This document shows positions 14,960-56,866 of a DNA stretch of 64,000 nt, in pieces. A program made the position numbers and the translations under genes. The notes beneath the pieces are model-generated. The model was not told the origin of the DNA, searched no databases, and saw only the letters and a program-made list of their open reading frames with translations. Source of the DNA: Aureococcus anophagefferens (Eukaryota > Sar > Pelagophyceae > Pelagomonadales > Pelagomonadaceae); the NCBI RefSeq assembly GCF_000186865.1, contig NW_008705561.1, forward strand, positions 311,711-375,710, read 5' to 3'. Position 1 is the first letter of the stretch; the number at the start of each line of letters is the position of its first letter.

Positions 14960-16251
14960 CTAGAGGTCGTAGAGCTGGCCCTGGGCCTCGCCGAGGACGG
15001 CGGACGCGGAGCCGAAGAGGCCCTTGAGGACGTCGCCGAGCACGGTGACGGCGACGCGGGCGACCTCCGCGACCTCGAGCTCCGCCTGGACCTCGTCCTC
15101 GTTGGGGATGAAGAACTGGGGCGTCTCCTCGACGACGGGCACCTTGGTGACGAACTCCTGGACGGCGAAGCCGACGATGGCCAGCATGGCCGTGCGGCCG
15201 TGCGTGAGCTCCTGGCCGATGATCTCGCGCCGCGCGGCCTCGACGGCGGAGAGCGGCCGCGGCGCCGCGGGCGCGAGCGCCTCCTCGAGGGCCAGCGCGT
15301 CGAGCGCGTCCTGCGCGTCGGCGTCGAGGCGCTCGCGCAGCGTCTCCGCGAGGTCGAAGGCGAGGGACGACTCCCGGAGGTTCGCGGACGCGCCGTCGTC
15401 GGGCCAGAGGCCGAGCGGGTCGAAGCCCAGATCCCCCGGCGCGCGCACCGCGCCGACGCGCTCCGCCTCGCGGAGCCGCGAGCTCCCGGCGTACTCGAGG
15501 GCGCCCGCGCCGGCGACCACCGCGAGCCAGTAGGCCGCCGTGACCTTGCCGAGGCCGCCGTTGAGCAGCGACGGCGCGAGGCCGATGCCTGGGCAGGAAA
15601 AGGGTGATTCAACGTCGCTTCAACGTGAGCGATCCGCGCGCGCGCGTTCCAGAAAAAGCATCCACGCTTCGAGACCGTTCCGAGAGATGATCGCTCGTCC
15701 AAAAATCAGCCGAAACGAGTGGAAAACGGCCGAGATAGGAGCCTTTGAAGTTGGGAATTTCGCACCCTTTTCCCGCCCCGGCCGATGCCCGCCGCGTCCG
15801 GCGCGACGAGCTCGCTCGGCAGCGCGAAGCGCTCGCTCAGGCGGCCGTCGAAGAGCTCGGACACGGGCCAGCCCACGGCCGCGAGCATGGCCACGCGGCC
15901 GTGCTTGAGCTCCGCCTCGCGGTACGCGTACAAGCGGTCGTCGCGCTCCTGCGGTGACTCGCCCTCGTTGAGGCCCCAGCCGACCTCGGCCCAGCCCAGC
16001 GGGTCGAAGCCGAAGTCGCCGGCGGTGAGGGCGAAGGCGTACTCGGCCCGCTTCAGCTCGTCGAGCCCCGCGGGCCGCTCGCACCAGGGCAGGGCCTCGC
16101 TCATCTCCCGGTCCACCGTCGTCGTGGCGCGGGCCGCCGTCCGCCGCGGCGCGGCGGCGCGCAGCGCGCAGGGCTTCGTGGCTTGCAGCGCACAGGCGCT
16201 GGCGGCCAGCGCGACGACGAGCATCGCGGGCGAGAGCTTGCACGCGGTCAT
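14960..16251 (-). CDS. LHC-type chlorophyll a/c-binding protein split by an introner
   Basis: Exon 1 is 15789-16251 and exon 2 is 14960-15588; the 200-nt intron is introner A1. Joining gives DAAGIGLAPSLLNGG in frame (363 aa). Exon 1 starts with a secretory/plastid leader (MTACKLSPAMLVVALAASACA) and has FGFDPLGWAEVG and ELKHGRVAMLA. Exon 2 has a second GDLGFDPLGLWPDD and ELTHGRTAMLA, so the protein carries two LHC-like N-terminal motifs and is longer than a standard ~200-aa antenna protein. It is probably a thylakoid antenna or stress-type LHC with extra length. Confidence 0.85.
15589..15780. mobile_element. Introner element A1 (192 bp) inside LHC gene
   Basis: The 8-bp TSD GCATCGGC (coding strand) lies at 15781-15788 and 15581-15588. 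The ends are imperfect inverted repeats (CGGGGCGGGAAAAGGG against CTGGGCAGGAAAAGGG). The intron runs from the GC that opens the upstream TSD copy to the AG that closes the element, so removal restores the original reading frame. It is 192 bp, exactly the size of introner A2, but sits in the opposite orientation relative to its host gene. Confidence 0.9.
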
Positions 16252-16369
16252 GGTCGCAGTCGAGATCTCTGCCGTGGTTTGCTGCCGGCCGCGTCAGGAT
16301 GCCTCCGATCGTTGAACGTTGCAGACTCGTTGCCGTCAACTCGGCTTCAAGGGCGCCCCAGAAGCGACA

Positions 16370-18037
16370 TCACACCCCCATGTTTAAAAGCGTCGCGAAG
16401 GTGGCGGAGAACGGCGGCGCGTCGAGGGGCTCCCCCGGCGCCTCCGTCGCCGCCCGCTTCGCGAAGCGCGGCGCCGCGAGGCCGCCGCCGCCCGCGGGCT
16501 CGAGGCGGACGACGGCGCGCGGCCCCTCGTGGCGCGGGAGCCGCACGCGGGCGGGCCGCGCGCCCGCGTTGACGACGAGCACGGCCACGATGCCCCTTCG
16601 TGTGCCCGCGTGCGCGTAGACCGACACCCCCGGCGGCGCGGGTCCGCAGGACGCGCGCAGCACGTCCGCGCCAAAGAGCGCCGAGAATGTCTCCGCGACG
16701 TCGAAGGACGGCGTCGGCGCGTAGGTCCGCCTGGGCAGGAAACAAAATATTCAACATGACTTCAATCGACATCGATTTGGCAGAGATAGAGAGGTTTGAA
16801 GTTCTGCTAGACGGGTCCAGCTCACTGGTTGTTTCCGGCACAGAGGTCCGCGAGTCCAGCAGGCCGTAGACGCCGCCCGCGAGGGTCTGCCGCGCGAGAA
16901 GCCCCACGCCCGCGGCCGCGGCCCGGCCGAGGAGGTCCGCGTACCTACGAGCCGGGGTCGAGCGGCGATCGTACGACGGACGCCGCGCCGCGTGCCAGAG
17001 CGCGCCCGCGACCGCGTCCGCGGCGCCGAAGCCGCTGCCCTCGGGCGCGTGCGTGCACGGCGCGACCGCGACCGCCCAGGGCGCGGGCTTGCCGAGGCGC
17101 CGCGCGAGGGCCGCGTAGCGCGCCGCGACGGCGTCGAAGCGCGCGCCGTGGCCCGCGTCGACGACCCCCGCTGCGACGTCCGCGCGCGCGGCGCCGTAGG
17201 CCGCGCAGCCCTCGTGCTTGCGCTTCCGCGGCAGGAACTCCGACGACGCGTAGTAGGAGAACGCGACGCGGTCGACGTCGCCGCGCGTCGCCGCGTAGGC
17301 CTCGTCGGTCCAGGCCGCGTCCTCGTCGGCATCCTGGTTGAGCACGCCGACGACGGTGCCCGCGAAGGACCGCCGGAGGGACCGGAAGTCCGCCGCGAGG
17401 CTCGCGGCCGTCGGCGCCTCTTTCAGCTTGCTCTTCGACGCCGACGGCCGCCGGTGGAGCTCCTCGAAGAGCAGGACGGCGCGCGTCTCCGCGGGCAACG
17501 ACGCCGCGGCCGCGCCGTCGAAGACGCCCGCGCCGTCGCGGATCGTCGGGTTGAGGTGCCAGGCGAGGTCCGTCCCCGTGGCCTCGGCGAACGCGCCGAG
17601 CGCCGCGAAATTGCGCGCCGACGCCGTGCCGGCGTAGCGCCTACCGTTGCACGACGGTACGTTCTTAAAATCGCTCGCCACGGGACGCCGGCGTAGCGCT
17701 TGCGCGCGCAGTAGGGGCTCGCGTAGCCGTCGCGGCCGACGACGCCGACGCAGTTCGACCGGCCGCCCGTGACGACGAGCAGCGCCGGCGCGAGGCGCCG
17801 CGCGAGCGCGACGAGGCGCGGGTGCGTGAGGTTGAGCAGGCCCGCGCCCCGCGGGTCCGAGAACTGGGACTTGGACGCGGCGCCGTCGAGCGCCAGGGAG
17901 CTCGGGTCGAGGACGGCGCTGACGTAGCGCGCGTCGACCGTGAGGTTCGTGCGCGCAAAGTCGCAGACGACCTCCGGCGCCGGCGGCGCGGCGGCCGCCA
18001 GCGCGACGCACAGGGCGAGCCTCATGCGTCGCCTCAT
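16370..18037 (-). CDS. GH79 heparanase-like glycoside hydrolase, three exons
   Basis: The exons are 17700-18037, 16852-17640 and 16370-16730 (495 aa). The signal peptide is RLALCVALAAAAPPAP. The core contains LLVVTGGRSNCVGVVGRDGY, a DVDRVAFSYYAS strand and, across the second intron, the VRQTL-like segment QTLAGGVYGLLDSRTYAPTPSFDVAETFSALFG split over two exons, matching the heparanase C-terminal region. GH79 enzymes cleave beta-glucuronides in proteoglycan- or arabinogalactan-type glycans. Both introns carry 8-bp TSDs (GCGCTACG and GCGGACCT) and use GC-AG sites. Confidence 0.82.
16731..16843. mobile_element. Introner element B3 (113 bp, internally deleted) inside GH79 gene
   Basis: The TSD GCGGACCT lies at 16844-16851 and 16723-16730. 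The outer parts match introners B1/B2 (AACTTCAAACCTCTCTATCTC on the coding strand is a near match to B2), but about 90 bp of the B2 middle is missing between the GTCGATT and GAAGTC motifs. The right end (CCTGCCCAG) matches family A rather than B. The intron is GC-AG and 121 nt long. Confidence 0.82.
17641..17691. mobile_element. Short introner-like element C1 (51 bp) inside GH79 gene
   Basis: The TSD GCGCTACG lies at 17692-17699 and 17633-17640. The 59-nt intron again starts with GC from the TSD and ends in an element-derived TAG. Its sequence (coding strand GGCGTCCCGTGGCGAGCG then a TTTTA run) resembles the short introns of the sorting nexin and MYND genes. Inverted repeats are not obvious at the ends, so the mechanism is less certain than for families A and B. 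Confidence 0.6.
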
Positions 18038-18173
18038 GGCACACTGGGCAGCCGCTCCTGCAGGAATTCCATAAGCCTCACTTTCTGGCCGATGGTGAAG
18101 CTTCGTGATGGTTTCGTGATGGGATGGTGACTTTCGGCAGCCCTGACTTCGACGGCGCGCTGCCGCCCTAGCC

Positions 18174-19020
18174 ATGTCCCAGCGGCGCTGGCGGCCGCCG
18201 AAGCAGGGCTGGAACGACGACTTTACGGGCACGAGCGCGCGCGCTCAAAGCGCCCCGCGGCCCCGTCGACGAGGAGCTGCTGGCGCTGCAGGCCGCGTGG
18301 GCGCCCGGGCGGCCGCGGCGCCGCAAGCCGGAGCTCGGCGCGGCGCTCGCGACCTACGACGCGGACCTCGTCTGGCGCGCGGACGATCGCCGCTCCGACG
18401 TCCGGAGCGGCGGCCTCAACTACGACGCGCCGATCATGCTCGAGGGCCTCCGGCGCTACGAGCGCCGGGGCGCGCGGCCGCGGTCGCCCGGCGGCGACGG
18501 CGGCGGCGACGACGACGCGTGCTTCGCCTATTTCGAGAAGAAGTGGGACTACATCTACGCCTTCGTCGACCGCGAGAAGGCGCGGGAGCGGCGCGAGGCG
18601 ATCGACCGCGCGCGGCGCGCGGCGCGCGGCGCCGCGGCCGCCGCCGACGACGACTTCGGCGCGCCCTTCGCCGGCGAGCGCCCCGCGGACGACGAGGACC
18701 GCCTCGCCGTCGCGAGCCTGCCGGACGCGCCGCGCGCGCCGCGAAACGCGACGACGTGGGCGGCGCTCGAGGCGAAGCTCGCCGCGGGCGCGGCGGTGGC
18801 CGTCGCCGACGTGCCCTGGCCCCTCGCCACGGACCGCATCGTCGACGCGCGGGCGCCCGCGGCCGCGCGCAAGGACCAGTGGCGCGCGGCGCTGCGGCGC
18901 TTCCACCCGGACAAGTTCCAGCGCGTCCTCGCCGCCGCGGCGCCCGGCGACCGGAGCCGCATCCTCGAGCGGTGCAAGGCCGTCACGCGCCGCATCATCG
19001 ACGAGAAGGCGCTGCTCTAG
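18174..19020 (+). CDS. NFKBIL1-like protein with degenerate J-like domain (apparent frameshift)
   Basis: The ATG at 18174 opens MSQRRWRPPKQGWNDDFTG in one frame. From about 18240 the coding continues one frame over (LKAPRGPVDEELLALQ) to the stop at 19018-19020. The switch lies in a GC dinucleotide run (18232-18244); removing one base joins the parts, and no intron fits. The C-terminal WRAALRRFHPDKFQ segment is the J-like WHPDKF signature of NF-kappa-B-inhibitor-like 1 proteins, preceded by VADVPWP. About 281 aa if repaired. Either an assembly error or a broken gene. Confidence 0.6.
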
Positions 19021-19028
19021 GCCCGGCG

Positions 19029-19102
19029 TTAGAACTTGAGGGGCGACGGCGGCGCGTCCTTCGAGCGCTCGAAGAGGCGCGTGAACTCGAAGCGGCGCTT
19101 CC

Positions 19103-19133
<31 letters not shown>

Positions 19134-20687
19134 GCCCGGCGCCGGCGTCAGGGCGGCGAGGAACGACCGGACGGCCGCGAGCGCCGCGGCCACGGAGCCG
19201 CCCAGGGTCGGCGCGGCGCCGCCGGCGAAGACGCGCGCGAGGAGGCCGAGGACGCCGACGCGGATCGCGGCGTCGGCGAGCTTCCGCTTCTGCACGCGGC
19301 GCGCGCGGTAGAGCGCGTAGCGGTGCTTGGCGTGCTCGACGAGGGCCTCCGTGTGCTCGCTGAGGAGCAGCTCCTTGAGCAGCGCGAAGTCGCCGTGCTT
19401 CCGGTTGCCCGCCTCGGAGCTGCCCCAGGGGTAGTGGCCGTCGCGCGCGACGATGCCGAGCGGGTCGCCCTTGGCGCGGCCGCGCGCGAAGGTGCGGTCG
19501 CCGAAGACGGAGTGGGGCGCCGCGTCGAAGTCGACGATGGCGATGCGCGCGCGGTCGAACTCCGCGCGGAGCAGCGCGCGGTACTCCGTGATCTCGTCGT
19601 CCGTGAGCGTGTCGGACTTGGCGATGACGGGCACCTGCGCGGGGAACGGGGAGATGCGACGTCGCTTCGACGCAAGGGGAACGGAGAGATGCGATGTTGC
19701 TTTGACGCGAGTGTTCCGCGTGTGTGTGTTCCGGAAAACGCATCCACGCGTCGAGGCCGTTCCAAGAGACGATCGCTCGTCCCAAACGTCGGCCGAAACG
19801 AGTGGAACGCGGCCGAGAGCGGAGCCTTTGAAGTCGGGCGCGTCGCGCTCGTGTCCCGCCCCGACGGGCGCGATCGCGAGCTCGCGCTGGACCTGCTGGA
19901 GGAAGTGGCGGTCGATGTCGAGGAAGCGGTGCGGCGGGATGAAGTAGATGCAGCAGTGCACGAGGCAGTCGTAGGAGTACTCCTCGTCGCCGGGCCGCGC
20001 GCCCATCTGGCACTCGAACTGCTCCGCGCGGCAGCGGTCGATGTACTGGAGGATGGGCCGCACGGCGTGCTTGTGGTCGATGGCGTTGCCGAAGCCCGGC
20101 GTGTCGATGACCTTGACGCGGACGATCGTGTTCGTCGCCTCGTCGAAGCGCTCGAAGCAGCGGCTCACGTCGACGTGCTTCGTGCTGTGGTGGATCTGCG
20201 GCCGGTCGCCGAGCGACGCGCTGTGGCGCCGCGGCTTCTTCTGGTCCCGCCGGTGCCAGTGCTCGAAGAGCATGTCGCAGCACGTCGTCTTGCCGAGCCC
20301 GGACAGGCCCGACACCATGACGTTGAACGACACGACGCGCGGCTTCAGCCGCAGCGACGCGACGTCGTCGGCCGTCGGCACCGGCACGTCCCGCCGCGCC
20401 TGCTTCTGCAGGAACGCGTTCGCCTCGTTCTCGCCCGCCGCGCGCGACATGACGTCCGTCAGCGCCTCGTCCTCCAGCGGGAACGCCTCGAGGTCCTCCG
20501 CCGGCGGCGGCGCGGGCGGCGGCGGCGCCGCGTCGTCCGTCGCCAGCGGCGACGCCTCGACGTCCGCCGCCGGCGGCGCGGGCGGCGGCGGCGCGCCGCC
20601 GCCGCCGCCGTCCATCGACGTCGCGGCGGCGCAGGCGACGAGCGCGGCGCACACAACCTTGAGCATGGCCATCTTGAGCATGGCCAT
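19029..20687 (-). CDS. Septin-like GTPase with N-terminal hydrophobic leader
   Basis: Exon 1 is 19872-20687 and exon 2 is 19029-19634 (473 aa). G1 is GLSGLGKT at 127-134, G3 is DTPG at 195-198 and G4 is AKSD at 277-280, created by the splice that joins ELAI to VPVIAKSD, a canonical septin strand. HCCIYFIPPHRFLDID is also septin-like. The N-terminus is unusual: a repeated MAMLK, then a hydrophobic VVCAALVACAAA leader and a proline/glycine-rich linker. Septins form membrane-associated filaments. The intron is in frame and stop-free, so an unspliced reading would falsely add 79 residues. Confidence 0.85.
19635..19863. mobile_element. Introner element A3 (229 bp) inside septin gene
   Basis: The target copies are GCGCCCGT (19864-19871, donor side) and GTGCCCGT (19627-19634, exon side), differing only at base 2. 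The element ends match family A (CGGGGCGGGACACGAG). Close to one end a unit of about 40 bp (GGGGAACGGGGAGATGCGAC...) is tandemly duplicated, explaining the extra length. The intron is 237 nt, GC-AG, a multiple of three and without stops. Confidence 0.88.
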
Positions 20688-20774
20688 TACGAACTCGCGC
20701 GCCAGAGCTCGAGTGCCGCGAGGACGAGAACGTCGATTTTGTTGAAGGTTGCAGTGATGTTGACGTCCATAAAC

Positions 20775-21662: not shown

Positions 21663-21897
21663 CGATCAGATCACGGCGCTGCGGCGCGGCCCATCGTCTT
21701 GCCGCAGAGGTCGCACTCGCCTTGCTCGCCGCCGCCCGCCGCGACTGCGCGCGCCGTCGAGCGCCGGCCGTAGCCCCGCGCCGCCGCCACCCGCGACGCC
21801 TCTCCTCCGACACACCGGCACCGTCGTCGAGCCGGGAGCGCCGCGAAACCTCGCCGTCGTCGCGCCGCCCGCGCGCAACCCATCGCAACACCGACCG

Positions 21898-22664
21898 ATG
21901 TCGTCCCTGCGCGCGGCGTCGCTCGTGAGCGTCACGGAGGTGACGAAGCTCATCGAGGATTTGAGCGCCAAGCAGGCCGAGTGCGAGTCGCAGCGCGCGC
22001 AGCTCGCCGTGCGGCTGTCGAGCAACAACCGCGACGAGAAGACGCAGGGCCTCCTCGCGCAAGTCGAGCTCAGCATCCGCGACGTCAAGCTCATGGTCCG
22101 CGAGCTCGAGGGCGAGAAGCAGAAGCTGGTCGCCGCGCGCGAGGCGGCCCAGCGGGCCAAGGACGCGGACCGGCGGAAGCGCGCGCCGGCCGCGGCGACG
22201 CCGCCGGGCACGAAGCTCGGCAAGTACGTCGTGCCGGACTGGATCGACGGCCGCGCGCCGGCGCTGCTCGTGGCGACGAAGGAGGGCAAGGCCGTGCAGA
22301 CCATCGATCTGTACAAGAAGGACTGCTTCGTCCTCGGCCGCCAGCCCGAGCTCTGCCACATCACGCTCGAGCACGCGTCCGTGAGCCGCCAGCACGTCGT
22401 CGTCATCCACGGCGCGCCTCCCGGCGGCGACAAGGGGTGGTACCTCGTCGACCTCGGGTCGGCCCACGGCACGGGCGTCAGCCCCGCGCCGGGCGAGAAG
22501 ATGGCCCGGCTCAAGCCCGAGACGCCCGCGCGCCTCGCTCCCGGCGCGTCGTTCCGCGTCGGCAAGTCGTCCCGCCTCTACACGGTCAAGGTCGACGACC
22601 GCCGCGACCGCAAGCGCAAGCCCGGCGACGGCGGCGACGCCGGGTCGGCGAAGCGGGCCCGCGT

Positions 22665-22709
<45 letters not shown>

Positions 22710-23157: not shown

Positions 23158-23165
23158 CACGCCTA

Positions 23166-37944: not shown

Positions 37945-40378
37945 ATGATGGACGCGCCGACGCGCAGCTACTCCGAGGCCTGGACGCGCAAGGCGCGCGC
38001 CCAGGGCCGCGCCGGCGACGCCGTCTTCGTCGAGCGCGGCGCGCTGCGCGCCCTCGGCGCCGAGGACCTCGCCGCGGACGCCGCGCCGGGCCCCGGGCGC
38101 AAGCCCGCGCTGCTGCCCACGGAGCAGCGCATGGTCGACCGCGACGCGTACGTCGTCTTCCTCGAGGACCAGCTCAGGCGCGTGTCCGACATGGTGCTCC
38201 AGCTCGACGCCAAGGAGGCCGACGTGGCGCGGACCATGGCGGCCGCGGAGGCGCGGTGCGTCGAGGCCGCGCGGGCGGCGCGCGCGGAGGACGGCGCGCG
38301 GCTCGAGGCGCGGCTGATCGACGCGGAGGCGCGCATCGCGCGGACGGAGCGCGAGCTCCGCGAGTCCGAGGCCGCGCGCAGGGCGGCCGACGACCGCCTG
38401 GCGGACCTGCTCGACGGCCGCCGCGAGCCCGAGCCCCGCGAGCGCCTGGCGGCCGTCGAGGAGAAGGCGAGCTCCGCGTGCGCGCGCGTGCTCGAGCTGG
38501 AGAAGGCGCTGCACCGCGCGCTGCGCGTCAAGGTCGCGCGGCCCGACGACGACGACGGCGCGTCGAGCCTCGGCGACGACGTCGAGGCGGCCCTGCGCGA
38601 CGCGACGGAGGAGGGCGTCCGGTGCCGCGCCGCGGCGGAGGCCGCGGACCGGCGGTGCGACGCGCTGGCCGAGCTCGCGGAGCGGTCCGAGGCCGCGGCG
38701 CGCGACGTCGCCGCCGCGGCGACGCGCCACGCCGACGAGCGGTCCGAGTGCGTCGTCGCGGCCATCGCCGACCTCGAGCGCGACTACGGCGCGCGCCTCG
38801 ACGCGCTCGAGCGCCGCGCGCTATCCGCGTCGCCGCGCCGCGCCGCGGCGCCGGGCCGCGCGCCGTCGCCGCCGCGCGCGGCCTCGCCGGGCCGCCGCGC
38901 GCCGTCGCCGCCGCGGGCGGCGTCGCCGGGCCGCGTCCACGCGATCCGCGCGGGCGGCGGCCCGTCGCCGCCGCACCACGACCGGCTCCCCGCGGACTCG
39001 CTCCTCGGGTCGTCGTTCCCGCCAGGGCAGGACAAGGGTGATTCAACGTCGCTTCAACGTGAGTGTTCCACGCGCGCGCGTTCCGGAAAAAGCATCCACG
39101 CTTCGAGACCGTTCCGAGAGATGATCGCTCGTCCAAAAATTAGCCGAAACGAGTGGAAAACGGCCGAGAGAGGAGCCTTTGAAGTTGGGAATTTCGCACT
39201 CTTGTCCTGCCCAGGTTCCCGCTCTCGCCGGAGACGCTCGAGACGGACGCGCCGGCCATCCACACCATGTCCGAGGCCGAGAGCGCGCTCGACGCCGCGC
39301 GCGAGTCCGCGCGCTGCGCCGCCGACGACGCCGTCGCGCGCGCGGCGGCCGCCGAGGACGAGGCCGCGGGCCTCCGCGCGCGCGCGGCGCAGCTCTGCGC
39401 GAAGCTCGTCGACGGCGGCGACGCGCCCCTCGACGACGCGCCCCTGCCCCTGCCCCGCTGCCGCGCGAGCGACGACGACGACGGCGCCGCCGCCGCAAAC
39501 GCCGCGCGGCCGCGGTCGCCGCCGCGGTCGCCGGCCGCGCGGCCGTCGCCGACGCGCCTCGCGGCGCGCCGCGGCTCGCCGACGGGCTTCCCGGCGGAGC
39601 GCTCGCCGTCGCCGCGCCGCGCGGCGTCGTCGCCCGGCGCGTCGCCCCGCCGCGGGGCGTCGTCCCCGCCCCGCCGCGGGGCGTCGTCCCCGCCCCGCCG
39701 CGCGGCGTCGCCGGCGTCGCCGCTCGCGCGCGGCGNNNNNNNNNNNNNNNNNNNNNNNNNNNNNNNNNNNNNNNNNNNNNNNNNNCGTCGCGGGCGGCGC
39801 GGTCCGCGTCGCCCGAGCGCCGCGCGGCGCCCGCGGCCGTCGCCCGCGCGGCCGCGCCGCGCCGCGACGGCGCCGACGTGACGCGCCTCGCGGCCGCGCG
39901 CGAGTCGCGGCTCCGCGGCGACGCTTTGGAGCCCGCCGACGAGCCGCCGCCCCTGCCGCCGCACCTGCGCGCCTACGGCGGCGACGGCGACGCGCCCGTG
40001 TCGCGGCGCGACCTCGTCGCGATGATCCCGCGGCTCTTCGCCGACGACTACGCCGGCGAGCCGGCGCCCCGGGGCGCGCCGCCGAAGAAGAAGGCGCCGC
40101 GGCCGAAGAAGCGCAAGCCCCAGCAGCCCAAGCGCAAGAGCCCGCCGCCGCGCGCGGACCCGCGGGGCGCCATGGCCAAGGCCGCCGCGCGCGTCGCCGC
40201 CGCGAACCGCCGCGCGGCCGCCGGCGGGCCCCTCGGCGAGTCCTGGCCGTCGTCGGTGATGCACTGCGGGCCCAACACGCGCGCCTGGGTGCCCGCGATC
40301 AAGGTCGGCACGCCGCGGCCCTCCGTCTCCGGCGTCGCCGGCGGCACGGTGTCCGTGGGGACGGGGCCCGGCCACTAG
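37945..40378 (+). CDS. Coiled-coil, serine/proline/arginine-rich protein (contains assembly gap)
   Basis: Exon 1 is 37945-39014 and exon 2 starts at 39215; the intron is introner A2. Exon 1 encodes a long alanine/glutamate/arginine coiled coil (residues 60-290). The sequence then becomes repetitive (SPPRRGASSPP-type units). A run of 50 Ns interrupts it at 39736-39785 and the open frame differs on the two sides, so the true gap is not 50 bp. The 3' part (KKKAPRPKKRKPQQPKRKS) ends at 40376-40378. No family was recognised; a cytoskeletal or nuclear scaffold is possible. Confidence 0.6.
39023..39214. mobile_element. Introner element A2 (192 bp), GT-AG, opposite orientation
   Basis: The TSD GTTCCCGC lies at 39015-39022 and 39215-39222. 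The termini CAGGGCAGGACAAGGG and CTGGGCAGGACAAGAG are near-perfect inverted repeats. It is the only introner here with a GT donor, again taken from the upstream TSD. The core GTCCAAAAATTAGCCGA runs sense to the gene, the reverse of A1, A3 and A4. Intron length 200 nt. Confidence 0.92.
39736..39785. other. Assembly gap of 50 Ns
   Basis: Fifty consecutive N characters. It falls in a repetitive Ser-Pro-Arg-coding region, which probably caused the assembly break. Confidence 0.99.
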
Positions 40379-45039: not shown

Positions 45040-45081
45040 GTGGGCGTAAGTCCGCGTTGCGGGGATGTTTCCCGTCGGAGC

Positions 45082-46843
45082 TCAGACGGCGGCCGCGTCC
45101 TTGTCCGGCGCCGCGGCGTCGCCCGCGTCCCAGACGAGGCCCGCGGCCATCAGCGGGCGGTCCGCGTCCTTGGGCTCGCCGAGGGCGTCGAGGGCGTCGT
45201 CCCAGGCCGAGATGGTCCGCGACGCGAGGTCCTTCTGCGCGTTGAAGAAGCGCCGCGTCCAGAGCGCGTTGAACGCCGCGTGCTCCGCGTCGAAGCGCGC
45301 CAGTTCGCAGTAGACGAGCGACCGCGCGTGCTGCTCCAGGAGCTTCTCGTTCTCCGCCACGACGCCCTCGGACTTGGCGATCTGCTCGTCGACGCTGAGC
45401 GTCGGGCCGTTCGTCTTGCTCGCGACCGCGCTCATGTTCTTCAGCGCCTTGTCCCAGAAGCCGCCCGACTTCTGCGGCGGCGGCGCGGCCTCGCCGCCCG
45501 TCTTGCCCGACGCCTTGTTCGCGTGGAGCAGCTGGAGCGTCTTCTGCTCCTTGCGCAGCTCGTCGAGGAGCACGCCGCGCTTCGCCTGTGTGGAAATCAA
45601 ATCCTCAAGCCGACTTCAATGTGCGCGTAATCGAACGGTTCGGACCAGAATCCTTCGCTGTGCTTCGGAACTCGATGAGAGCAATCGATCCGTCCAAAAA
45701 TCAGCCGAATCGACTTCGATTTGGCCGAGCTAGGGAATTTCAAAGTTTGGTCGGGACGTCCCGAACCGGCGGTTGATTTCCACGCCGCGCTTCGCGAGCA
45801 GGTCCTTGAGCGCCGCGACGTGGAGCTGCTGCCACTGGAGCGCGCCGCCGACGGCGACGTCGAGCGCGTTCGCCTCGAGCGCGCACTCCAGGCTCCAGGC
45901 GCGGAGCGCGCCGGACACGGCCGCGGCCGACGCCTCGCCGCCGCCCTTCTCGCCGCCGAGCTCCAGCGCGGAGAGCCGCGCGGACTCGCCGCGCCAGGGC
46001 GCGAAGCCCTCCGAGAGCGCCGCGACGCCCTCCGCGCGCTGGCCCAGGCCGCCGGCGCCGCGGGCCACGGCGGCCTGCGCCGCGCCGAGCGCCGCGCCGA
46101 GCGCCTCGAGGCGCGGGTTCACGTCCGCGAGGAGCCGCGCGAGCGCCGCGACCTACGAGACGCGTCGGTAACCATGCGTTGCTTCCGTCGAACGCGCTCG
46201 TAAAATCGTCTCCGGGACGCCGGGGGGCGACGGCGGGCGCGGCGTCGGACCGCTGGATCGTCGCGTACCAGAGCGCGCGGCCGCGGCCGCTGACCTGGGC
46301 CTCGTCCGTGGCGATGGCCCCCGGCGCCTGCTCACCCTCGAGGGCCTTGGCGAAGGGCTCCTTGGACGCGCCGACGAAGCTCCGGAGCACGGCGTCGTCG
46401 CCGAGCCACGGGATCGTGCCCAGCCGCTCCGCGAAGAGGCCCAGCACGCGGAGCCGCTGCTTCGTCTGCTTGTCGGCGGCCTTGGCCGACATGGACGCGA
46501 TGGACGTGAGCTCCTTGGGCGGGATGGGCGGCACGAGGAGCCCGACGTAGCGCTGCACGAGCGCTTCGCGGAGCGTCGCGAACTCGGAGAAGCGCCGCGT
46601 GATCTCGAACTCGTCCTCGCTGCCGTCGTCGCGCGAGCAGCGGCTCCTCACGCGGTAGGTCACGTGGCGCGACAGGGCGCTGCCCGCCTGGACGGGGTTG
46701 TCCACCGTCAGCGTGAGCCGCGGCAGCTTCTCGCCGGCGCGCGACCAGGCCTCGCGCCAGGGGACGACGCCGGCCCGCTCCTCCACCTTGACCTCGCCCG
46801 CGGACGCCGCCGCGGGCCACTCGTCGCTCCCGGGCGCCGCCAT
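45082..46843 (-). CDS. PX-BAR sorting nexin (Vps5-like), three exons
   Basis: Exons 46232-46843, 45796-46152 and 45082-45585 (490 aa). The PX domain includes VTYRVRSRC, EITRRFSEFATLREAL and LLVPPIPPKE, the phosphoinositide-binding PPxPPK-type motif. A BAR-like coiled coil fills the rest (LADVNPRLEALGAALGAAQ; EKLLEQHARSLVYCELARF). Intron 1 (79 nt, GT-AG) is a short C-type intron; intron 2 is introner B1. Sorting nexins of this type bend endosomal membranes for retrograde transport, as in retromer. Confidence 0.88.
45586..45787. mobile_element. Introner element B1 (202 bp) inside sorting nexin gene
   Basis: The TSD GCGAAGCG lies at 45788-45795 and 45578-45585; identity continues 7 bp further (CGGCGTG). 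The inverted ends share GTGGAAATCAA. The intron is GC-AG and 210 nt. The interior is close to B2 over its whole length (for example the GTCCAAAAATCAGCCGA core and GATGAGAGCAATCGAT). Confidence 0.9.
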
Positions 46844-48910: not shown

Positions 48911-51427
48911 TCAGAACTCGAGGACGGAGTCGAGGCACGCGGCGACGAGGTCCGTGTCGTAGGCGTAGCCGTCGTCGTCGTCGTCGTCGCCGCCGTCGTC
49001 CGTGACGACGGGCGGCGCGGGAAGGAAGGACCGGCCCGGCGGGAAGCGGAGGAGCCGCGTCGCGAAGAAGGGCCCGCCGGCCTCGAGCTGCGTGACGACC
49101 TCGGGCACGAGCACGTTGTTGACGACGCCGAGGATGCCCCCGCGGAGGAAGCGCACGGACGTGTGGCGCGCGCGGCCGAAGGCCTTGACCTGGTCCTTGA
49201 GCTCCGCGAACGAGATGCCCTCGGGCCGCGCGGCCGCGCGGTCCGCGACGTACAGGCGCAGGTCCTCGACGAAGCCGAGCTCCGCCGGCGGCGTGCGGCA
49301 GCGCACGGCGTCGCCGACGACGCGCAGCTTGCCCGCGGTCTCGAGCACGTGGCGGAGGTCGCGGCAGCCCAGCGCCGCCGCGTCGTCGAGGTCGTGGCCG
49401 TGGACGCGGCGGTACGCGCCCGCGACCTCGCCCAGGGGCAGCGCCGCGCCGCGGTGGACGAGCTCGTAGTCGTGGACGGCGACGTGGAGGCGCTTCTGCG
49501 CGCCCGCGAGCTTGCGCTGCGCCTCCGCGTCCGGCGACGGCGCGACGGCGCGCGCGTAGCGCGGCGCGGCGCCGGGCCCGAGCAGCGCGATGCGCGCGTC
49601 GCCGCCGGCTAAACCGCCGGCCGCGCCCGCGGGCACGGCGTGGCTCACGGGCGCGCCCGCCTCGATCCACGTGAGGCGGCCCGCGCCGAAGCGGAGGATC
49701 GCGTGCTTGATGCCCGAGCCCTGGCCGCCGCCCTTGCGGTACTGCGGGAACTGCGCGTAGAAGGGCACCAAGTCCGCGCACTTGACCTCGCGGCGCCGCT
49801 GGCGCGCCAGCCAGTCGTAGAGGTCGTCGACGAGCTGGTGGCTCGCCGCGTCGCGCGCCGCGAGCGCCGCGGGGTCGCCGCCTGCGTGGTCATTAAAATC
49901 TTCAACCCGACTTCAATGTGCGCGTAATTGAACGGATTGCGCCGGACTCTTCGGCCGTGCTTCGAGAACTCGATGAGAGCAATCGATTCGTCCAAAAATC
50001 AGCCGAATCGACTTCGATTTGATTGAGATAGAGAGTTCTGAAGTTTGGTGGGGACCCCCAAACCAGTGGTTGATTTCCACACAGGTCGCCGCTCAGGCTG
50101 CCGGACGACGGGAACGAGCCGAGGCTCGCGAGCGACGCGGCGGACGTGCGCGCGAGGGACGCGCCGCTCCAGGTCCGCTGGAGCGTCGCGGCGCTCCCGA
50201 AGTCGCCGAAGCTGCCCAGCGACGACGAGCTCCCAAAGCCCGCGAGGTGCGCGCCGGACGACGAGTGCACCGGCGGCGACCCGCTCCCGAGCGATTCCGC
50301 GTAGCCCGACGAGTCCAGGGCCCCGTCGCCGTCGCGGGGCATGGCGCGCACGACGAGGGCGCCGTTGTTCCGCTCCCTGTGGGACTCCCAGGCGAGGTGC
50401 GCGTCGACGCCGTGCGACGCGACGGCGGCCCGGACGTGCGACGTCGACGGCGCGCACGGGTACGCGCGCGTGCCCGCGAGCGTGCCCAGGAACGGCGCGA
50501 CGCCCGACCGGCTCAGCACGGCCTCGTGGGGCCAGGGCCGCCGCAGCAGCCAGGCCCGCAGGTCCTCCGCGAGGCGCCGGAGCGCGCCGGGCGGGAAGTG
50601 AGGGAAGCCCCCGGCCGGGAGGGGCGGCGCGCGGCTCGGCAGGGGCGCGGGCGCCTCGAAGGCCTGGGCCGAGCCCACGACCCACTGGAGCGGCGCCGCG
50701 CCGCCGCGGAAGACGGCGCCCGATCTTTCGAGGCCGTCGAGGTCGACGCGCGCGCCGCGCGCGAGGTTCCGCACGTAGTTGTAGAGCGACGACACGAGCA
50801 CCGCGGACCGGCCCGCGAGCCAGGGCGGCTCGACGTCGTCCGGGATGGGGTACCTGCGTGCAGGGAGGCGTGAGCGTCGACGAGCGGCGCTCCCGCTCGG
50901 ACGCCGTCGCCGCGCGGGTCGACGCGGCGGAGGTGCGCGATGATGGCGAGCGCGTCGGCGCCCTGGACGTAGAGCGCGTCGTCGAGCGCGGCGGGCCGGG
51001 CCGGCGCCTCCGGCGACACGACGCGGCTCCGGAGCGCGGGCCACTCGACGAACGCCGCGTCGCCCTTCGGCCTCTCGCCCACCACTGCCACCCCCTCGTA
51101 GCCCGCGGCGACGAGCCGCTTGATCGCGTCGCCGACGAAGGCGTGGCCCCCGAAGGCGTCGGCGTCGGCGCCGGCGACGACGGCGACGCGGCCGGGCGGC
51201 GGGTGCGCGACGGCCCAGAGCGCGGCCTCGAGGCACGCGTTCGCGACGACGCGCACGTCGCACGTCGCGTCGTCCCAGGGCAGCACCGCCGCGAGCTGCG
51301 GCGACTTGTTGTGCTCGTCGACGAAGGCCTCGTGGCGCACGCTCGAGTCCCAGAAGACGGCGAGCGGCGGCGTCGCCATGGCCGGCTTGCGTCCGGTCCC
51401 GGGAATCTGGGGGAAGAAGTTGGGCAT
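48911..51427 (-). CDS. NYN-nuclease plus LOTUS-like RNA-binding protein, three exons
   Basis: Exon 3 is 48911-49881, exon 2 is 50093-50853, and exon 1 runs from 51427 to about 50916. The first intron has a clear CACGCAG acceptor but several possible donors; the second is introner B2. About 747 aa. Residues 20-150 are an NYN/PIN-like domain (LAVFWDSS, VVAGADADAFG, VVGERPKGD). The C-terminus has a LOTUS-type helix-turn-helix (LPLGEVAGAYRRVHGHDL...HVLETAGKLRVV). The pairing matches MARF1/limkain-b1 proteins, which control mRNA. A serine-rich linker lies between. Confidence 0.75.
49882..50084. mobile_element. Introner element B2 (203 bp) inside NYN-LOTUS gene
   Basis: The TSD GCGGCGAC (coding strand) lies at 50085-50092 and 49874-49881. 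The ends are CTGTGTGGAAATCAAC and CTGCGTGGTCATTAAA, imperfect inverted repeats. The GC-AG intron is 211 nt and splicing restores LSGDPAALAARDAASHQLVDD. The sense orientation matches B1. Confidence 0.9.
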
Positions 51428-51645
51428 GCGCTGACGGGCGACGCCGCGACCGGTGCCCCCCCGCCGCGGCCGCGCCGCGAACGGCCGGCAGGGGTCGGGG
51501 GAGGCGCGACGCGCGGCGAAGGTTTCAAGGCCGACGAGGGATGACGCCTCCTTTTCACACGTCGATTCAGTCCTCAACGATCGTGAAGTCGCCTCGACGC
51601 CTCTGACGGCGGGGTGGAGCCTCATAGAGCTCTGCGATGAAGAGT

Positions 51646-51780
51646 TTAGCCGCTATTATTTAGAGCTAAGAGCGCCTCCTTCGATTTCTCGTGGCCTTTG
51701 GCGGCGCCGGGAGCCAACCAGCGTCTGGCCTCGTCGATGTCCACGTCCACACCGCGGCCGTAATAATATATAGATCCCAT
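51646..51780 (-). pseudogene. Relic of a Sel1-repeat gene (one repeat)
   Basis: A 44-codon frame starting MGSIYYYGRGVDVDIDEARRW encodes a single Sel1-like repeat (YYYGRG..D...A..W...AA.KGH), closely like the last repeat of the RING-Sel1 gene just upstream on the same strand. It lacks the rest of that gene and is probably a leftover from a tandem duplication. The sequence is AT-richer than the surroundings. Confidence 0.5.
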
Positions 51781-51897
51781 CTGGAGAGTGTTCCCAGAGA
51801 GAGGAACGCGGCAACGACGATGCCAAGGCCAAGCACGACTGCCGTGCGCAAGCGCAGCATCTCGGGCTCGGGCGACGATGCGGGGTAAAGATTTAAG

Positions 51898-52984
51898 CTA
51901 TACTCGCGCATCGAGGGCCGCGAGGGACTCTATAGCTGGCTCGTAGCCCTTGGCAGCGGCGCGCTCGAACCAGTATCTGGCTTTGCCCAGGTCGACCTCC
52001 GTGCCTTCTCCGTCCCTGTAACAACAGCCAAGGTTGAACTCTCCAGAGGTATAGCCTTGATCCGCCGCGAGCGCGTAGTACCGGAACGCCTCTTCAAATC
52101 TCTCCTCAGCATCAAGTAAAGCCCCTAAATTGTTTTGCGCGAGCGCGTCGCCCCGATCTGCGGCCGCGCGATACAGCCGTTCCGCCTTCTTCTTGTCCAG
52201 TTTGACGCCACTTCCAGTCTCATGCAATCTCCCAAGGTGTCTCATCGCGTCCACGTCGCCGAGCTCCACAGCGCGCCGGTAAATCTTCGCGGCTTTCTTA
52301 TCGGATTTCACGAGGCCAAATTTACCGAGTCGGTACAATTCTCCCAAACAGCAAATCGCATCCGGCACCTCGTTCTCCACATGGCGGCGAAGACGCGCGA
52401 GCTCCTCCGCATTGGTTTTCGTGGGCGGTAGGCGACAGAGGGGACACGCGCCGGTGCCGATCTTGTTCTCGCACGATCGGCAGACCTTTCGGCAGCAACA
52501 GACGCGAAGCACGCCCGGAACATTCATGTCCCACTCCTCGAGGCAGATCGGGCACCGCGACCCGTACCGCGCAGACAGCGGCTGTCGCTCCGGGTTCGCC
52601 TCGCGCCGCTGACGCGCCGCCTCGTGCTCCGCCGCGATGCGCGCGCGGACCTCGTCGGCGTGCGACCGAGGCGCGGGGCCGTAGAACACGTCCCGCGGCG
52701 GCGACGGCGGGGGCGTCGGCGCCTCGGCCCGGGCCGCCTCCGCCGCGCGCTCGCTTCGGATCTTCTTGCACGCCTTTCGAAAACCGGTCGCGCCAGTCGA
52801 TGCGTTGACAGTCCGTCGTGCAGTATTGAGCCGTGCCGCACGGACACGGGAGCTTCGCGGTAGCCGAGCAAATCGAACAGGTAGTGCGGAGTTTCAGGGC
52901 TTTCGCCCTCGCTTTGACCTGCTCGAATTCTCTTTGCTTCTTCTTCCACTCGGGCTCGTCGCCCCCCTCGTTCTTTGGGTTCAT
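51898..52984 (-). CDS. MYND-like finger plus RING plus Sel1-repeat protein (apparent frameshift)
   Basis: From the ATG at 52982-52984, CSICSATAKLPCPCGTAQYC..CQRIDW is a MYND-like finger. The frame then breaks in the T4 run (A4 on the plus strand at 52782-52785); dropping one base continues RDRFRKACKKIRSER. The rest has a RING finger (CPICLEEWDMNVPG...CPLC) and four or five Sel1 repeats (AKIYRRAVELGDVDAMRHLGRL; AERLYRAAADRGDALAQNNLGAL). About 362 aa if repaired. RING domains act in ubiquitin transfer. The shift may be a base error, since both sides look conserved. Confidence 0.65.
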
Positions 52985-53259
52985 CGTGTTGTCTCGCGTT
53001 TCTTGAGATTCTGGGGTACACCGGTTTATTTTTTGTCGCGGTCTTGCCGCGATTCGGCGGCGCCGACAAGCGCCACAAGATCTCCACAAAGGCGATCGCC
53101 AAGCAAGTGGCAGACGCGATAGGCGCGTGGCGGGGTGCTTCGCCTAATGCGCTAGAGAGAGACGTGGTCGACCCGCGTCGACGCGAACGCAGCTCGCCCT
53201 GCGTCGCGCGCGCGACCGTGACCGTATCACTCCTTCCGCCGAACCACAACACCAAAACG

Positions 53260-53999
53260 ATGGCGAACTTTTCCAGCCTCACGGACGAGCTCGGCTTTAT
53301 GCTTGCGAAGGCGGAGATTGCGACGCCCGAACCTGACAAAGCCGAAACGAGCGAGCGTGAACCGTCGCAGCAGCTCACCGCCGCCGGCGAAGCCTTGAAC
53401 GCATCAGCGACGTGGTTCCGCGCCGCGGCGCGCGACGACGGCGCGCTCGACGGCCGCGCGTTCCTCGCGGCGACGTCCGCGTTGACTCCGTGGCTCGACT
53501 CGCTCGGCTGCGGCATCACCTCGATGGTCAACGTCAACGTCGCGAAGCTCGAGACGCGCTTCGGCGCCGACGACGCGTTCGAGGAAATCGAGGTTGGCGC
53601 CGCCGTCGCGGACGAGGCGTCGCGCGGCGCCAAGGACGACGACGACAGCGTCTTCGTCGCGTCGCTCTGGAACGCGCGCATCCTCAGCCTCATCGGTCGC
53701 CTCCTCGAGAGCGTGCTCGCGTGCGCGGACCTCGCCACCGACCCTCGGAGCTGTGCGAGATCATCACGGCGTCGTACGAGGATACGCTCGCGCGCCACCA
53801 CAACTGGGCCGTCCGGCCCGCCGCCAAAGCGCTCCTGCTCATGACGCCCGACCGCGCCGACCTGCTCGCGGATTTCGGCTACAACAAAAATGAGTGGAAC
53901 ACGCGCGCGCGGAGCGACTTCGCGGAGTTCGTCGCGGCCGTCGAGGCCTGCCTCGGGCGGCTCGCGGCCATCTACGCGCCCTACGACGAGGCGATTTGA
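53260..53999 (+). CDS. Glycolipid transfer protein (GLTP) family (apparent frameshift)
   Basis: The start is MANFSSLTDELGFML. The GLTP-like segments are GCGITSMVNVNVAKLETRF (the headgroup site region) and ARILSLIGRLLESVLACADL. At 53742-53744 (a C3 run) the frame shifts; adding one C joins ...ATDPSELCEIITASYEDTLARHHNWAVRPAAKALL, which carries the family histidine-tryptophan pair. It ends DFAEFVAAVEACLGRLA. About 246 aa if repaired. GLTPs carry glycosphingolipids between membranes. Confidence 0.72.
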
Positions 54000-54149
54000 G
54001 GCTCCTGCTAATGGATAATCTAGCACCTCCAGACGTCGGCGGGGAGGATCGCAGATGCGCCAGGGAGAGAGAGGCAAGTGACTGGCGGTCCGACTGGCCG
54101 GTCTGGGCGCCTCCACCTTGAAGTGCAACTTGCCGCATTCCCCTCATCG

Positions 54150-56866
54150 ATGGGCACACCCCCAAACAGGCAGCCCATGGAGGCGCAGTGCTCGTCGCGG
54201 GACGAGGCGGAGCGGCGGCGGCGGTCGAAGCTGCGCGCCGAGGACGAGAAGATGCACTCGCTGGCCCAGCAGGGCCGCCAGTCGCTCATCATCGTCAGCG
54301 ACCCCCTGGCGCCGTCGGCCTACACGGGCCGCAAGCTGTCGCCCGGCGTGTCGAGCGGCGGCTTCAGCGACGGTTCGAGCTCGCCGCCGCCGCCGCGCGC
54401 GCCGCTCCTCAAGCGCCTGTCGCGGCGCATGTCCGACAGTTTAGCGCACATCACGCAGCACGCGGAGCCGCACAGCGAGTTCTTCGACCTCGACGACTCG
54501 TACATCGACGCCAGGACCGTGGAGCACGAGGCGGTCCTGCGCGTGCACTACCCGGCGCGGGGCTCGCCCTGGGCGGCCCTGGACCCGAGCGCGCCCTGGC
54601 GCACGTGGTGGGACGCGTGGATGCTCGCGCTCGTCGTCTACGTCATGTTTGTGACGCCGTTCGAGCTGGCCTTCGTGAACAAGGTGCCCCTCGACGGCGG
54701 GCTCTTCGTCGCGAACTGCGTCGCGGACCTGAGCTTCCTCGGCGACCTGGTGCTCCAGTTCCACACGGGCTACTACGACGCGTGGCGGCGCGAGTGGGTG
54801 ACGTCGCGGCGGCGCATCGCCGCGCACTACGCGTCCTGCTACCTCTGGCTGGACGTCGTGTCGCTCCTCCCCTACGAGTACCTCTACCGCAAGTCGAGCG
54901 GCCTGGCCATCCTGCGCCTCGTGCGCCTCGTGCGCCTCGCGAAGCTCCTCCGCGTCGCGAAGGCGCCGCGGATTTTGGCGAACATCCCGCTCTTCGCGGA
55001 GATGTCCTTCAAGGCCCACGTCGTCGCCAAGTACCTGGGCTGCCTCGTGGGCATGCTCCACCTCCAGGCCTGCAGCATCCGCCTCGCCCACGACTTCCAC
55101 CGGGGCGGCGGCGACAACGCGGGCACGAACTCGTACCTCGTCTGGAAGGCGCTCACGTTCCGCCACACGTCGTGGCCGAGCAACTGGGCGTCCTACGTCG
55201 ACTCGCTCGACTGGGCCGTGCAGACCATGCTGGGCCAGTCCGCCTACATGACGACGGCCGAGGGCGTGCTGTCCATCGCGTCGAACAGGGCGGGAAAAGC
55301 GTGCGACATTCCCAAAGGCTCCGATCTCGGCCGTGTTCCGCTCGTTTTGGCCGATGCTTGGACGAGCGATCATCTCTTGGAACGGTCTCGAGGCGTGGGT
55401 GATGTTTTTGATACGCGCGCGCGCGGACCACTCACCTTGAAGCGACGTCGAATCTCTCGGTTCCCGCCCAGGTGTCGAACCTCGTGGGCATCATGTTCGT
55501 CGCGTTCCTCTTCGGCGACCTCACGAACATCTTGTGCAACCTGGACCCGGCGTCGAACGAGTTCAAGCGCACGGTGGACAACATGAACAAGTTCGCGAGC
55601 GACAACAACTTCCCGCGGCCCGTGCGCGACCAGCTGCGGGACTACCTCCGCCAGAGCGAGAGCCTCTTCCGCGCGAAGTTCCACGGCAACCTCGTCGACA
55701 AGCTGTCGCCGAACCTCCAGGAGCTCATCGCCCACTTCCGCCTGGGCCACCGCGTCGTCACGACGCCCCTCGTGTCCTACGCGCGCCAGTGCACGCTCGG
55801 CCTCGTCGTCGGCCGGCGCCTCGTGATCCGGCCGCGGCGGCGGCCGCGGCCCCGGAAGAAGCCGCGCGGCGGCGACGACGACGACGCGTCGGCCTTCGAC
55901 CGCGTGCGCCGCGAGGCCGTCATCACGCGCATCTGCCCGGGCATGAACTACGACGTGCGCTACCTCGACGACTTCTCGGCGGAGCGGAGCGTCGCGCACG
56001 ACCGCATCTCGCTCCGCGACGAGTCGACGCGCGTCCAGCGCGCGGTCCAGACCATGGAGTACGTGACGAAGCTCCTCGTGACGAACATGGCCAAGACCCT
56101 CGTGGCGACCCTCTTCATGGGCGGCGACTACGTCATCCGCAAGGACATCACGCTCACGTCGGCCATGTACGTCGTCGACGGCGGCCGCGTCATGGTCTTC
56201 GGGCGCGACGTGCTGCGCCCCTACGCCATGTCCTTCCTCACGGAGGGGGGCTGCTTCGGCGACCAGACGGCGGCGATGATCGTCGCGGGCCACGCGCCGC
56301 GGCCGGCCTGGTACAACGCGCGCGCGACGATGATCAGCCGCCTGCTCGTCCTCGAGGCCGACGCGCTCTTCGACATCATCTCGAAGCCGGGCTTCGAGAC
56401 CTTCCGCAAGTACATCGCGCGCTACGGCGTCTGGGCGTCCTTCAAGATCAACTTCGTCAAGGCCATGAAGAACGGCGACCTCGCGCGCGTCCTCACGGAC
56501 TGGCACCGGGAGGAGGCCCCGGCGGCGGACCTGGCGCGGGCCGAGAGCTTCGACCGCGGCTTCGAGGGCCGCGTCGCCGCGAAGGTCGCCGCGCGCCTCG
56601 AGCGGCGCCTGGACGCGCTCGAGGCGCGGCTCGCGGCGGCCGGCGGCGGCGCGGCCCCCGCGCCCGCGCCGCCGCCGCCGCCGCCGCCGCCCGCCGCCGC
56701 GCCCGCGGAGGTCGTCGTCGTGACGGCGTCCGACGCGCCGCCGGTCGGCGAGCAGTCGCCGGGCGTCTCGGGCCTCCGGGCGTCCTACGACTACATGTCG
56801 CACCCGCACCACGACAGCTTCGACGAGCTCGCGACGCTCGCGGAGCAGCACGACGGTAAGCCTTAG
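54150..56866 (+). CDS. Voltage-gated, cyclic-nucleotide-binding-domain ion channel (EAG/CNG-like)
   Basis: Exons 54150-55277 and 55472-56866 (840 aa). The six-span core includes a basic voltage sensor, LAILRLVRLVRLAKLLRVAK. A pore-helix segment (SLDWAVQTMLGQSAYMT) precedes the last span, which is created by the splice LSI-VSNLVGIMFVAFLF. The cytoplasmic half has a C-linker-like region, a degenerate cyclic-nucleotide-binding-like fold (DYVIRKDITLTSAMYVVDGGRVMVF; GGCFGDQTAAMIV), a coiled coil and a polyproline tract. The selectivity-filter motif GYG/GFG is absent, so the ion specificity is unclear. Confidence 0.82.
55286..55471. mobile_element. Introner element A4 (186 bp) inside ion-channel gene
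   Basis: The target copies are GCGTCGAA (55278-55285, donor) and GTGTCGAA (55472-55479, exon), one difference at base 2. The inverted ends CAGGGCGGGAAAAGCG and CTGGGCGGGAACCGAG are imperfect. GC-AG, 194-nt intron. The core (GGCCGATGCTTGGACGAG) is diverged from A1, so it is probably an older insertion. Confidence 0.88.

Follow-up and report, generated by a model that had tools for sequence, protein, structure and literature searches.

Eight sites in a 64 000-nucleotide stretch of Aureococcus anophagefferens DNA, all of which was analysed and is called the window here, raise the question of how a gene can gain an intron and still encode the same protein. An earlier note had described eight introns of one build, an 8 bp target copy followed by an element and then by the same 8 bp, with the donor lying in the first copy and the element ending in the acceptor. 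The eight coordinate pairs given there, from 15581–15788 to 55278–55479, are exact to the base, and in all eight introns the first copy opens with GC or GT and the final two bases of the element are AG. The two copies are the same at six of the sites; at 19627 and 55278 they are not, since base 2 of the donor reads C in the donor copy (GC) and T in the exon copy (GT). All three intron phases occur, as had been stated (1, 2, 2, 0, 2, 0, 1 and 0 in window order), the donor is GC in seven introns and GT only at 39015, and two related repeat families cover seven of the eight elements. The host genome is GC-rich and comprises 49 Mb. The seven elements of the two families are, very probably, introners: short nonautonomous DNA transposons with terminal inverted repeats (TIRs) that were inserted into genes and are predicted to be spliced out exactly.

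The coding strand is minus at 15581, 16723, 17633, 19627, 45578 and 49874 and plus at 39015 and 55278. The family A introner A1 (15581–15788; predicted intron 15589–15788, 200 nt, GC-AG, phase 1), with the repeat GCATCGGC on the coding strand, interrupts a chlorophyll a/b-binding-like (LHC) gene whose spliced protein matches Pfam PF00504. A2, a B-like introner (16723–16851; intron 16731–16851, 121 nt, GC-AG, phase 2), shares its host gene with C1, an 8 bp repeat flanking 51 bp (17633–17699; putative intron 17641–17699, 59 nt, GC-AG, phase 2); this gene gave no Pfam match and presumably resembles a heparanase-type glycosidase. A3 (19627–19871; intron 19635–19871, 237 nt, GC-AG, phase 0) is a diverged family A introner with repeat copies GCGCCCGT (donor) and GTGCCCGT (exon), and its junction falls inside the conserved VPVIAKSDTL stretch of a septin gene (PF00735). 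The family A introner A4 (39015–39222; intron 39015–39214, 200 nt, GT-AG, phase 2) has an interior that runs opposite to that of A1. Family B is represented by B1 (45578–45795; intron 45586–45795, 210 nt, GC-AG, phase 0), in a PX-domain (sorting-nexin-like) gene with PF00787 upstream, and by B2 (49874–50092; intron 49882–50092, 211 nt, GC-AG, phase 1), the ends of which suit splicing on either strand and the flanking frame of which points to minus. The last site, A5 (55278–55479; intron 55278–55471, 194 nt, GC-AG, phase 0), holds a family A introner in an ion-channel gene (PF00520), with repeat copies GCGTCGAA (donor) and GTGTCGAA (exon). An Rfam search of the window gave nothing at the gathering threshold.

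The families extend well beyond the window. A genome search found at least 40 places for A1 and at least 40 for B1, each count including the query itself, and the B1 matches other than itself were 87–92% identical among the genome places scored. Three places match both parts of A2 with approximately 83–93 bp lying between them, and at one locus (L033) A2 and B1 match a common place; A2 is probably an internally deleted relative of family B. Copies were collected from the window and 20 fetched 10 kb loci (264 kb), giving 65 BLAST-defined copies, of which 55 were kept; the loci were picked around A1-like matches, so that the sample is skewed towards young family A. On second inspection three of the ten dropped copies fitted as well, and the other seven are degenerate and, like C1, do not support the introner model. 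A scan of the 264 kb for target-site duplications (TSDs) and TIRs by structure alone returned 665 matches, compared with 606–655 in four offset controls, and was set aside; it was swamped by low-complexity, GC-rich sequence, and the family-based search was used instead.

Paralogous genes can have similar introns, and such repeats could arise if an existing, ordinary intron were spread by gene duplication or conversion, with no insertion at all. This origin is exceedingly improbable here. The host genes are unrelated according to Pfam (LHC, septin, ion channel and PX protein), and the end repeats are specific to their loci: the two repeats of a copy are identical in 50 of the 55 kept copies, which were selected to have an 8 bp repeat within one mismatch (C1 being kept by exception), whereas of 2970 pairings of repeats from different copies, 4 are identical and 64 (2.2%) agree to within one base. 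Among aligned relatives, 13 of 16 septins cross the A3 junction without an intron-sized insert (one, P0002, has two extra residues nearby), as do all 11 LHC proteins at the A1 junction. At the protein level, the environmental protein P0122 (98–99% identical, 27 members on 21 contigs) is uninterrupted at A1, which fits either an empty site or a spliced intron, and P0001 (96% identical over 69% of the query), P0011 and P0012 (both 99% over 34%) read into or out of A3.

In the 42 family A copies, TIR positions 1 and 3–14 pair in 79–100%, and two copies are identical across 164 internal bases. The earlier note had called the transposons active; near-identical copies and mostly intact repeats speak for present-day activity, but only indirectly. 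Two of the five mismatched repeats differ at donor base 2, too few for a change from GT to GC after insertion to be claimed. C1 had been described as sharing the common build, and its 8 bp repeat, donor and AG do so; its status as a member of a mobile family is unproven, as the whole-genome search returned C1 itself alone and no clear TIR was found in it (8 of 16 positions pair). C1, and perhaps other short introns, could have arisen without a transposon, through a staggered break that was mended with filler DNA and left a direct repeat, and short direct repeats flanking new introns have been reported in Daphnia. We hold this origin to be plausible without preferring it: the C1 repeat is 8 bp, the same size as in the introners, and C1 is a single case.

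The splice signals and the reading frame agree with the introner reading. GC or GT at one end and AG at the other are found on exactly one strand in 52 of the 55 kept copies, on both strands in two and on neither in one, a degenerate copy. For most copies the strand was assigned from these signals; a codon-bias frame test blind to splice sites, run on 53 copies, is an independent check. Its codon model was trained on four window-gene stretches and is mildly circular for three of these, each of which had been joined across a predicted window intron. Strand and frame are kept across the predicted junction in 45 of the 53 copies, and the earlier claim that splicing restores the coding sequence holds at the DNA level, within the 264 kb, for all 39 copies with a strong coding signal on both flanks. 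Retention of the 45 frame-assigned introns would introduce an in-frame stop in 34, and the length is not a multiple of three in 43. The introns are inferred to be spliced in the cell.

Insertion of a TIR-bearing element would duplicate 8 bp of target. One end of the element in family A, or both ends in most of family B, is a pyrimidine-rich stretch ending in CAG, which would be usable as a 3′ splice site. Where GC or GT opens the duplicated target, the 5′ splice site would come from the first copy and the AG from the element; the second copy would remain exonic, and removal of 8 bp plus the element would restore the gene. If elements land in genes and are spliced exactly, each landing makes a new intron. 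Misfit insertions would presumably be purged, leaving the copies that we see, in which GY end (Y being C or T), CAG end and coding strand are consistent with one another.

That GY instead reflects a target preference of the transposase is a rather unlikely alternative to such a purge. It would accommodate the splice-predicted strand being the coding strand by codon bias in all 37 copies with strong coding flanks and a prediction, the lack of clearly antisense or intergenic copies (0 of 53, though only 63% of 240 nt windows, 2709 of 4323, look coding) and a weak hint of symmetry, a purine at position 7 of the far-end repeat in 37 of 54. A symmetrical preference fits poorly with RC (R being A or G) at the far end in only 17 of 54 against GY at the near end in 54 of 54, however, and the coding strand is invisible to a transposase. 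The donors themselves also look shaped by splicing efficiency: at codons offering both GT and GC, 14 of 31 donors are GC against 71% expected (p = 0.003), an approximately threefold excess of GT.

The donors depend on codon composition. The intron phases (18/13/13) match the supply of GY at the three codon positions (p = 0.82), and GC donors occur in 27 of the 45 frame-assigned introns. If donors are copied from GC-rich codons, almost every phase-1 introner should be GC-AG, and phases 0 and 2 should show both kinds of donor. This is observed: all 13 phase-1 donors are GC, and the exons hold 8372 GC and 200 GT at that position. Passages of an earlier survey likewise give a very high GC-donor share in this high-GC genome, 39.6% of introns being GC-AG, which is termed an enigma for which U1 RNA gave no cause (PMC3033335). 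In our search U1 RNA was not found, and the controls were silent as well. The abundance of GC-AG introns in Aureococcus may have its cause in GY taken over from GC-rich codons.

Beyond GY the donors have no clear consensus, and in the same passages the intron information deficit of A. anophagefferens is the largest among 61 species (PMC3033335). The terminal-repeat stem might substitute for the absent consensus by acting in RNA to bring donor and AG together. Of 53 introns, 45 form a terminal stem of at least 8 of 16 pairs in their minimum-energy fold, 39 of the 41 classed as A (C1 included) leave the acceptor A unpaired, and family A ends pair better within than between copies, with none of 2000 shuffles, which ignore relatedness, reaching the observed value. 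Such a role is nevertheless unlikely. Transposase binding to both ends predicts the same pairing; for family B, where 233 of 2000 shuffles reach the observed value, the excess falls short of significance, and only 2 of 12 introns leave the acceptor A unpaired; when the right half is taken from another copy, the stem still forms in 27 of 40 introns of family A and in 7 of 11 of family B; and GT is as frequent close to the donor as far from it (30 of 795 in each case).

On the coding strand, 37 of 42 family A copies have the ends C[A/G]GGGC...GCCCAG, and the interior between them is found in both directions, with no significant link to lineage. Two copies (L020_7818 and L026_1932) run in opposite directions although only one of their 164 internal bases differs, and the gene frame supports the strand in all eight turned copies. 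TIR position 2 never pairs (0 of 42 copies), the only such terminal position. Conceivably, though we would not presume it, recombination between the terminal repeats may turn the interior between fixed ends, the acceptor-bearing end serving either direction; position 2 behaves as if held out of end exchange, leaving the acceptor A free. Turning of this kind would explain how one acceptor-bearing design yields introns in both directions.

The mobility presumably came from an unseen transposase. Searches found no hAT transposase domain (PF05699), no KDZ or MULE domain and no TNP-like GBD domain (PF21788); the controls were silent in all but one of these searches, those for hAT and PF21788 among the silent ones. 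One match to PF21787 (P-type transposase) lay above the cut-off (E = 1.4e-9) in a single-copy gene with in-frame TAG codons, the read-through protein of which has one distant homologue (28%). Directly downstream of this broken gene lies an introner-like stretch (70% over 134 positions); matching terminal repeats were not found. The 264 kb contain 82 family A TIR motifs, six of them without a partner within 150–260 bp; all six belong to known copies with a deviating other end, and no long element was seen there. In the search for carriers, a viral and a prokaryotic contig set each held a single exact 19-base match, with surroundings that suggest chance, and two further viral scans and two phage BLAST searches gave nothing in collections that may omit near relatives of the host.

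The mechanism itself is already known in Aureococcus and Micromonas; the anatomy of the present elements, their families, orientation, predicted frame restoration and donor dependence on codons can be read from the DNA. In 2016 Huff, Zilberman and Roy reportedly described introners of Aureococcus anophagefferens and Micromonas pusilla, likewise short nonautonomous DNA transposons, that carry one splice site and co-opt the other from the duplicated target. Nothing excludes identity of the Aureococcus and Micromonas introners with the present families. Passages on them mention TIRs and direct repeats whose length is constant in Aureococcus (PMC7789003), both orientations (PMC10228655) and a characteristic intron length of about 210 bp (PMC9481584), compared with 200 and 210–211 nt for full-length copies here; in the passages of these three papers, neither fixed ends around a freely turning interior nor a link between codon composition and GC donors appears. 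The parts of Gozashti et al. (2022; PMC9860276) concerned describe a Symbiodinium family that carries the 3′ site and obtains the 5′ site through its 4 bp TSD (their Fig. 2B), and an Aureococcus sp. family, family 4, that also has an 8 bp TSD. This family 4 contains both splice sites and lengthens the transcript by 12 bp, whereas the families here, spliced as predicted, would add none.

The genome displays the DNA anatomy of each step of intron gain by introners. Introners are a leading explanation for mass intron gain. The codon link turns the stated GC-AG puzzle into a testable prediction, and sites such as A1, which is occupied here while a near-identical environmental gene seemingly has no interruption there, could help to date the birth of an intron.

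The earlier note had read eight introns of the window as an 8-bp target copy, an element and a second target copy. Its eight coordinate pairs are exact when checked against the sequence, and at all eight sites the coding strand carries the build described, an 8-bp repeat starting with G[C/T], an element ending in AG and the repeat again. On the minus strand these are A1 (15581–15788; intron of 200 nt), A2 (16723–16851; 121 nt), C1 (17633–17699; 59 nt), A3 (19627–19871; 237 nt), B1 (45578–45795; 210 nt) and B2 (49874–50092; 211 nt), and on the plus strand A4 (39015–39222; 200 nt), whose gene has a run of 50 N inside, and A5 (55278–55479; 194 nt). The repeat copies are identical at six sites; the window's sole mismatches, at A3 and A5, both fall on base 2, where the donor copy reads GC and the exon copy GT. 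In the septin alignment the A3 position is V or I, not A, which suggests that the donor copy mutated after insertion.

The genome holding the window comprises 49.05 Mb in 86 contigs. GC content is 71.5% in the window and likewise in all 264 kb examined, and third codon positions are 99.6% GC (four window coding stretches, 1370 codons). Size, GC content and introner length roughly fit Aureococcus, for which the portions of the sources consulted give 56 Mb and 67.4% GC (PMC9481584) or 69.5% GC (PMC3033335).

A genome search for family copies, a check proposed in the earlier note, found at least 40 A1-like places including A1 (the others scored 93–96% identical; 2104 first-look candidates) and at least 40 B1-like places including B1 (87–92%; 1659 candidates). 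The introner interpretation holds for seven sites; C1, a putative case, matched nothing but itself in the whole genome. A2 gave 43 matches, mostly over one part, with three places matching both parts about 83–93 bp apart, a pattern suggestive of a B-like element with an internal deletion. A3, A4, A5 and B2 were assigned to families via shared 8-mers. Families A and B have a common stretch near CGTCCAAAAATCAGCCGAA, by which they look like distant branches of a single element.

BLAST defined 65 copies in the window and 20 ten-kilobase loci, each centred on an A1-like match (264 kb in total). Retention required an 8-bp repeat whose two copies differed at no more than one base, plus terminal inverted repeats (TIRs) pairing at 10 or more of 16 positions; C1 was retained by exception and the A1 ends were placed by hand. 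This left 55 copies. Three of the ten dropped fitted perfectly on re-inspection, the others being degenerate or truncated by the locus end. GY...AG was confined to a single strand in 52 of the 55, occurred on both in two and was absent from both in one.

A codon-usage score blind to splice sites was applied to the 240 nt flanking each repeat, using a model whose training set came from parts of four window genes; these genes are therefore not independent in this test. Strand and frame were kept after removal of the predicted intron in 45 of 53 copies with enough flank (chance about 1 in 6) and in all 39 whose two flanks both scored strongly as coding; the coding strand was the splice-predicted one in 37/37, the remaining two having no prediction. 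The better-scoring flank of all eight discontinuous copies lay on the predicted strand, and none of the 53 was clearly antisense.

A Pfam scan of the spliced frames hosting A1, A2/C1, A3, A5, B1 and B2 matched the A1 host to chlorophyll a/b-binding protein (LHC), the A3 host to septin, the A5 host to an ion channel and the B1 host, upstream of B1, to a PX domain; at E 0.001 there was no match for the A2/C1 protein, the B2 protein or the later part of the B1 protein. The A3 junction sits within the conserved septin stretch VPVIAKSDTL, which 13 of 16 aligned homologues (from 120 matches listed) cross without an intron-sized insert, P0002 having two extra residues close by. The other three, the environmental proteins P0001 (96% over 69% of the query), P0011 and P0012 (both 99% over 34%), read into or out of the element, indicating that their genes hold the introner and that gene prediction did not splice it out. 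All 11 aligned LHC homologues (from 120 matches listed) cross the A1 junction uninterrupted. Among them is P0122, 99% identical from end to end; its 27 members come from 21 contigs of up to 7.8 kb. It may derive from a transcript contig; since gene calling evidently ignored splicing for other proteins carrying that source label, we prefer to read its gene as an empty allele at the A1 site. The nearest named septin and LHC relatives among the matches listed, from databases that may omit close relatives, are from Pelagophyceae sp. CCMP2097 (55–58%). Two environmental LHC relatives, P0139 and P0130, diverge abruptly just past LNGGLG, as if another intron started there.

Insertion in both orientations is already known (Huff et al., as described in the part of PMC10228655 consulted). 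The interior is oriented as in A1 in 34 of 42 family A copies and turned in eight, all eight with the gene frame continuous on the assigned strand; the 12 family B copies split 9 and 3. The donor-side end of family A is CAG in 25 copies, CGG in 16 (one degenerate) and CCG in one, and never CTG among the 42; 40 copies have CAG at the acceptor end, and both ends conform to C[A/G]GGGC...GCCCAG in 37. Assigning strand from splice signals partly predetermines the acceptor count, but not the donor-side absence of CTG. TIR position 2 pairs in 0/42, versus 79–100% at positions 1 and 3–14, and in the exact-TIR subset of the 264 kb the donor side carries A or G in all 32 copies. Pairing is better within than between copies, by shuffles ignoring relatedness. 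A tree of 39 interiors requires six orientation changes for the eight turned copies (shuffle mean 7.4; six or fewer in 205 of 2000 shuffles), so that orientation is not significantly linked to lineage; four turned copies cluster with L020_7818 (a copy in one fetched locus), on a tree based on few differences. Turning thus seems to have occurred several times, with the ends matching the gene each time. Recombination between the terminal repeats may have turned the interior, one event sufficing per case; without it, both end bases must change jointly at each turn.

No hAT, KDZ, MULE or TNP-like GBD domain turned up in genome searches, three of which had silent controls. One P-element-type domain (PF21787, E = 1.4e-9) lies at G000:C25:178372–178818; the P-element-like transposase gene there (1087–2290 of locus L031) is single-copy and its frame is broken by several in-frame TAG codons. 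Directly downstream is a decayed introner-like stretch that matches A1 at 70% over 134 positions. Given how common introners are in the genome, this could be an old copy placed there by chance, and matching terminal repeats were not seen in the partly readable surroundings. The gene is a lead, not a partner of the introners.

Donors in the 45 frame-assigned introns (C1 included) are GC in 27, GT in 17 and a degenerate TA in one. All 13 phase-1 donors are GC; exon dinucleotides at this codon position number 8372 GC versus 200 GT, as T is nearly missing from third codon positions. In phases 0 and 2, GC donors are fewer than expected (14/31 versus 71%; p = 0.003), which corresponds to a roughly threefold preference for GT (odds calculated by hand from donor and exon counts). 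Intron phases (18/13/13) agree with the GY supply (p = 0.82), and no donor consensus beyond GY is clearly visible in the introns examined.

Introner insertion is a known mechanism; what may be new is narrow, namely the independence of ends and interior in family A and the setting of GC donors by codons. A link from codons to GC donors was not found in the portions consulted of the literature on introners and GC–AG introns, and Huff et al. (2016) may discuss one. In A. anophagefferens, 39.6% of introns are GC–AG and the U1 end is normal; this abundance is termed an enigma in the part of the source consulted (Iwata and Gotoh, PMC3033335). Co-option of donors from GC-rich codons offers a possible cause of this abundance.
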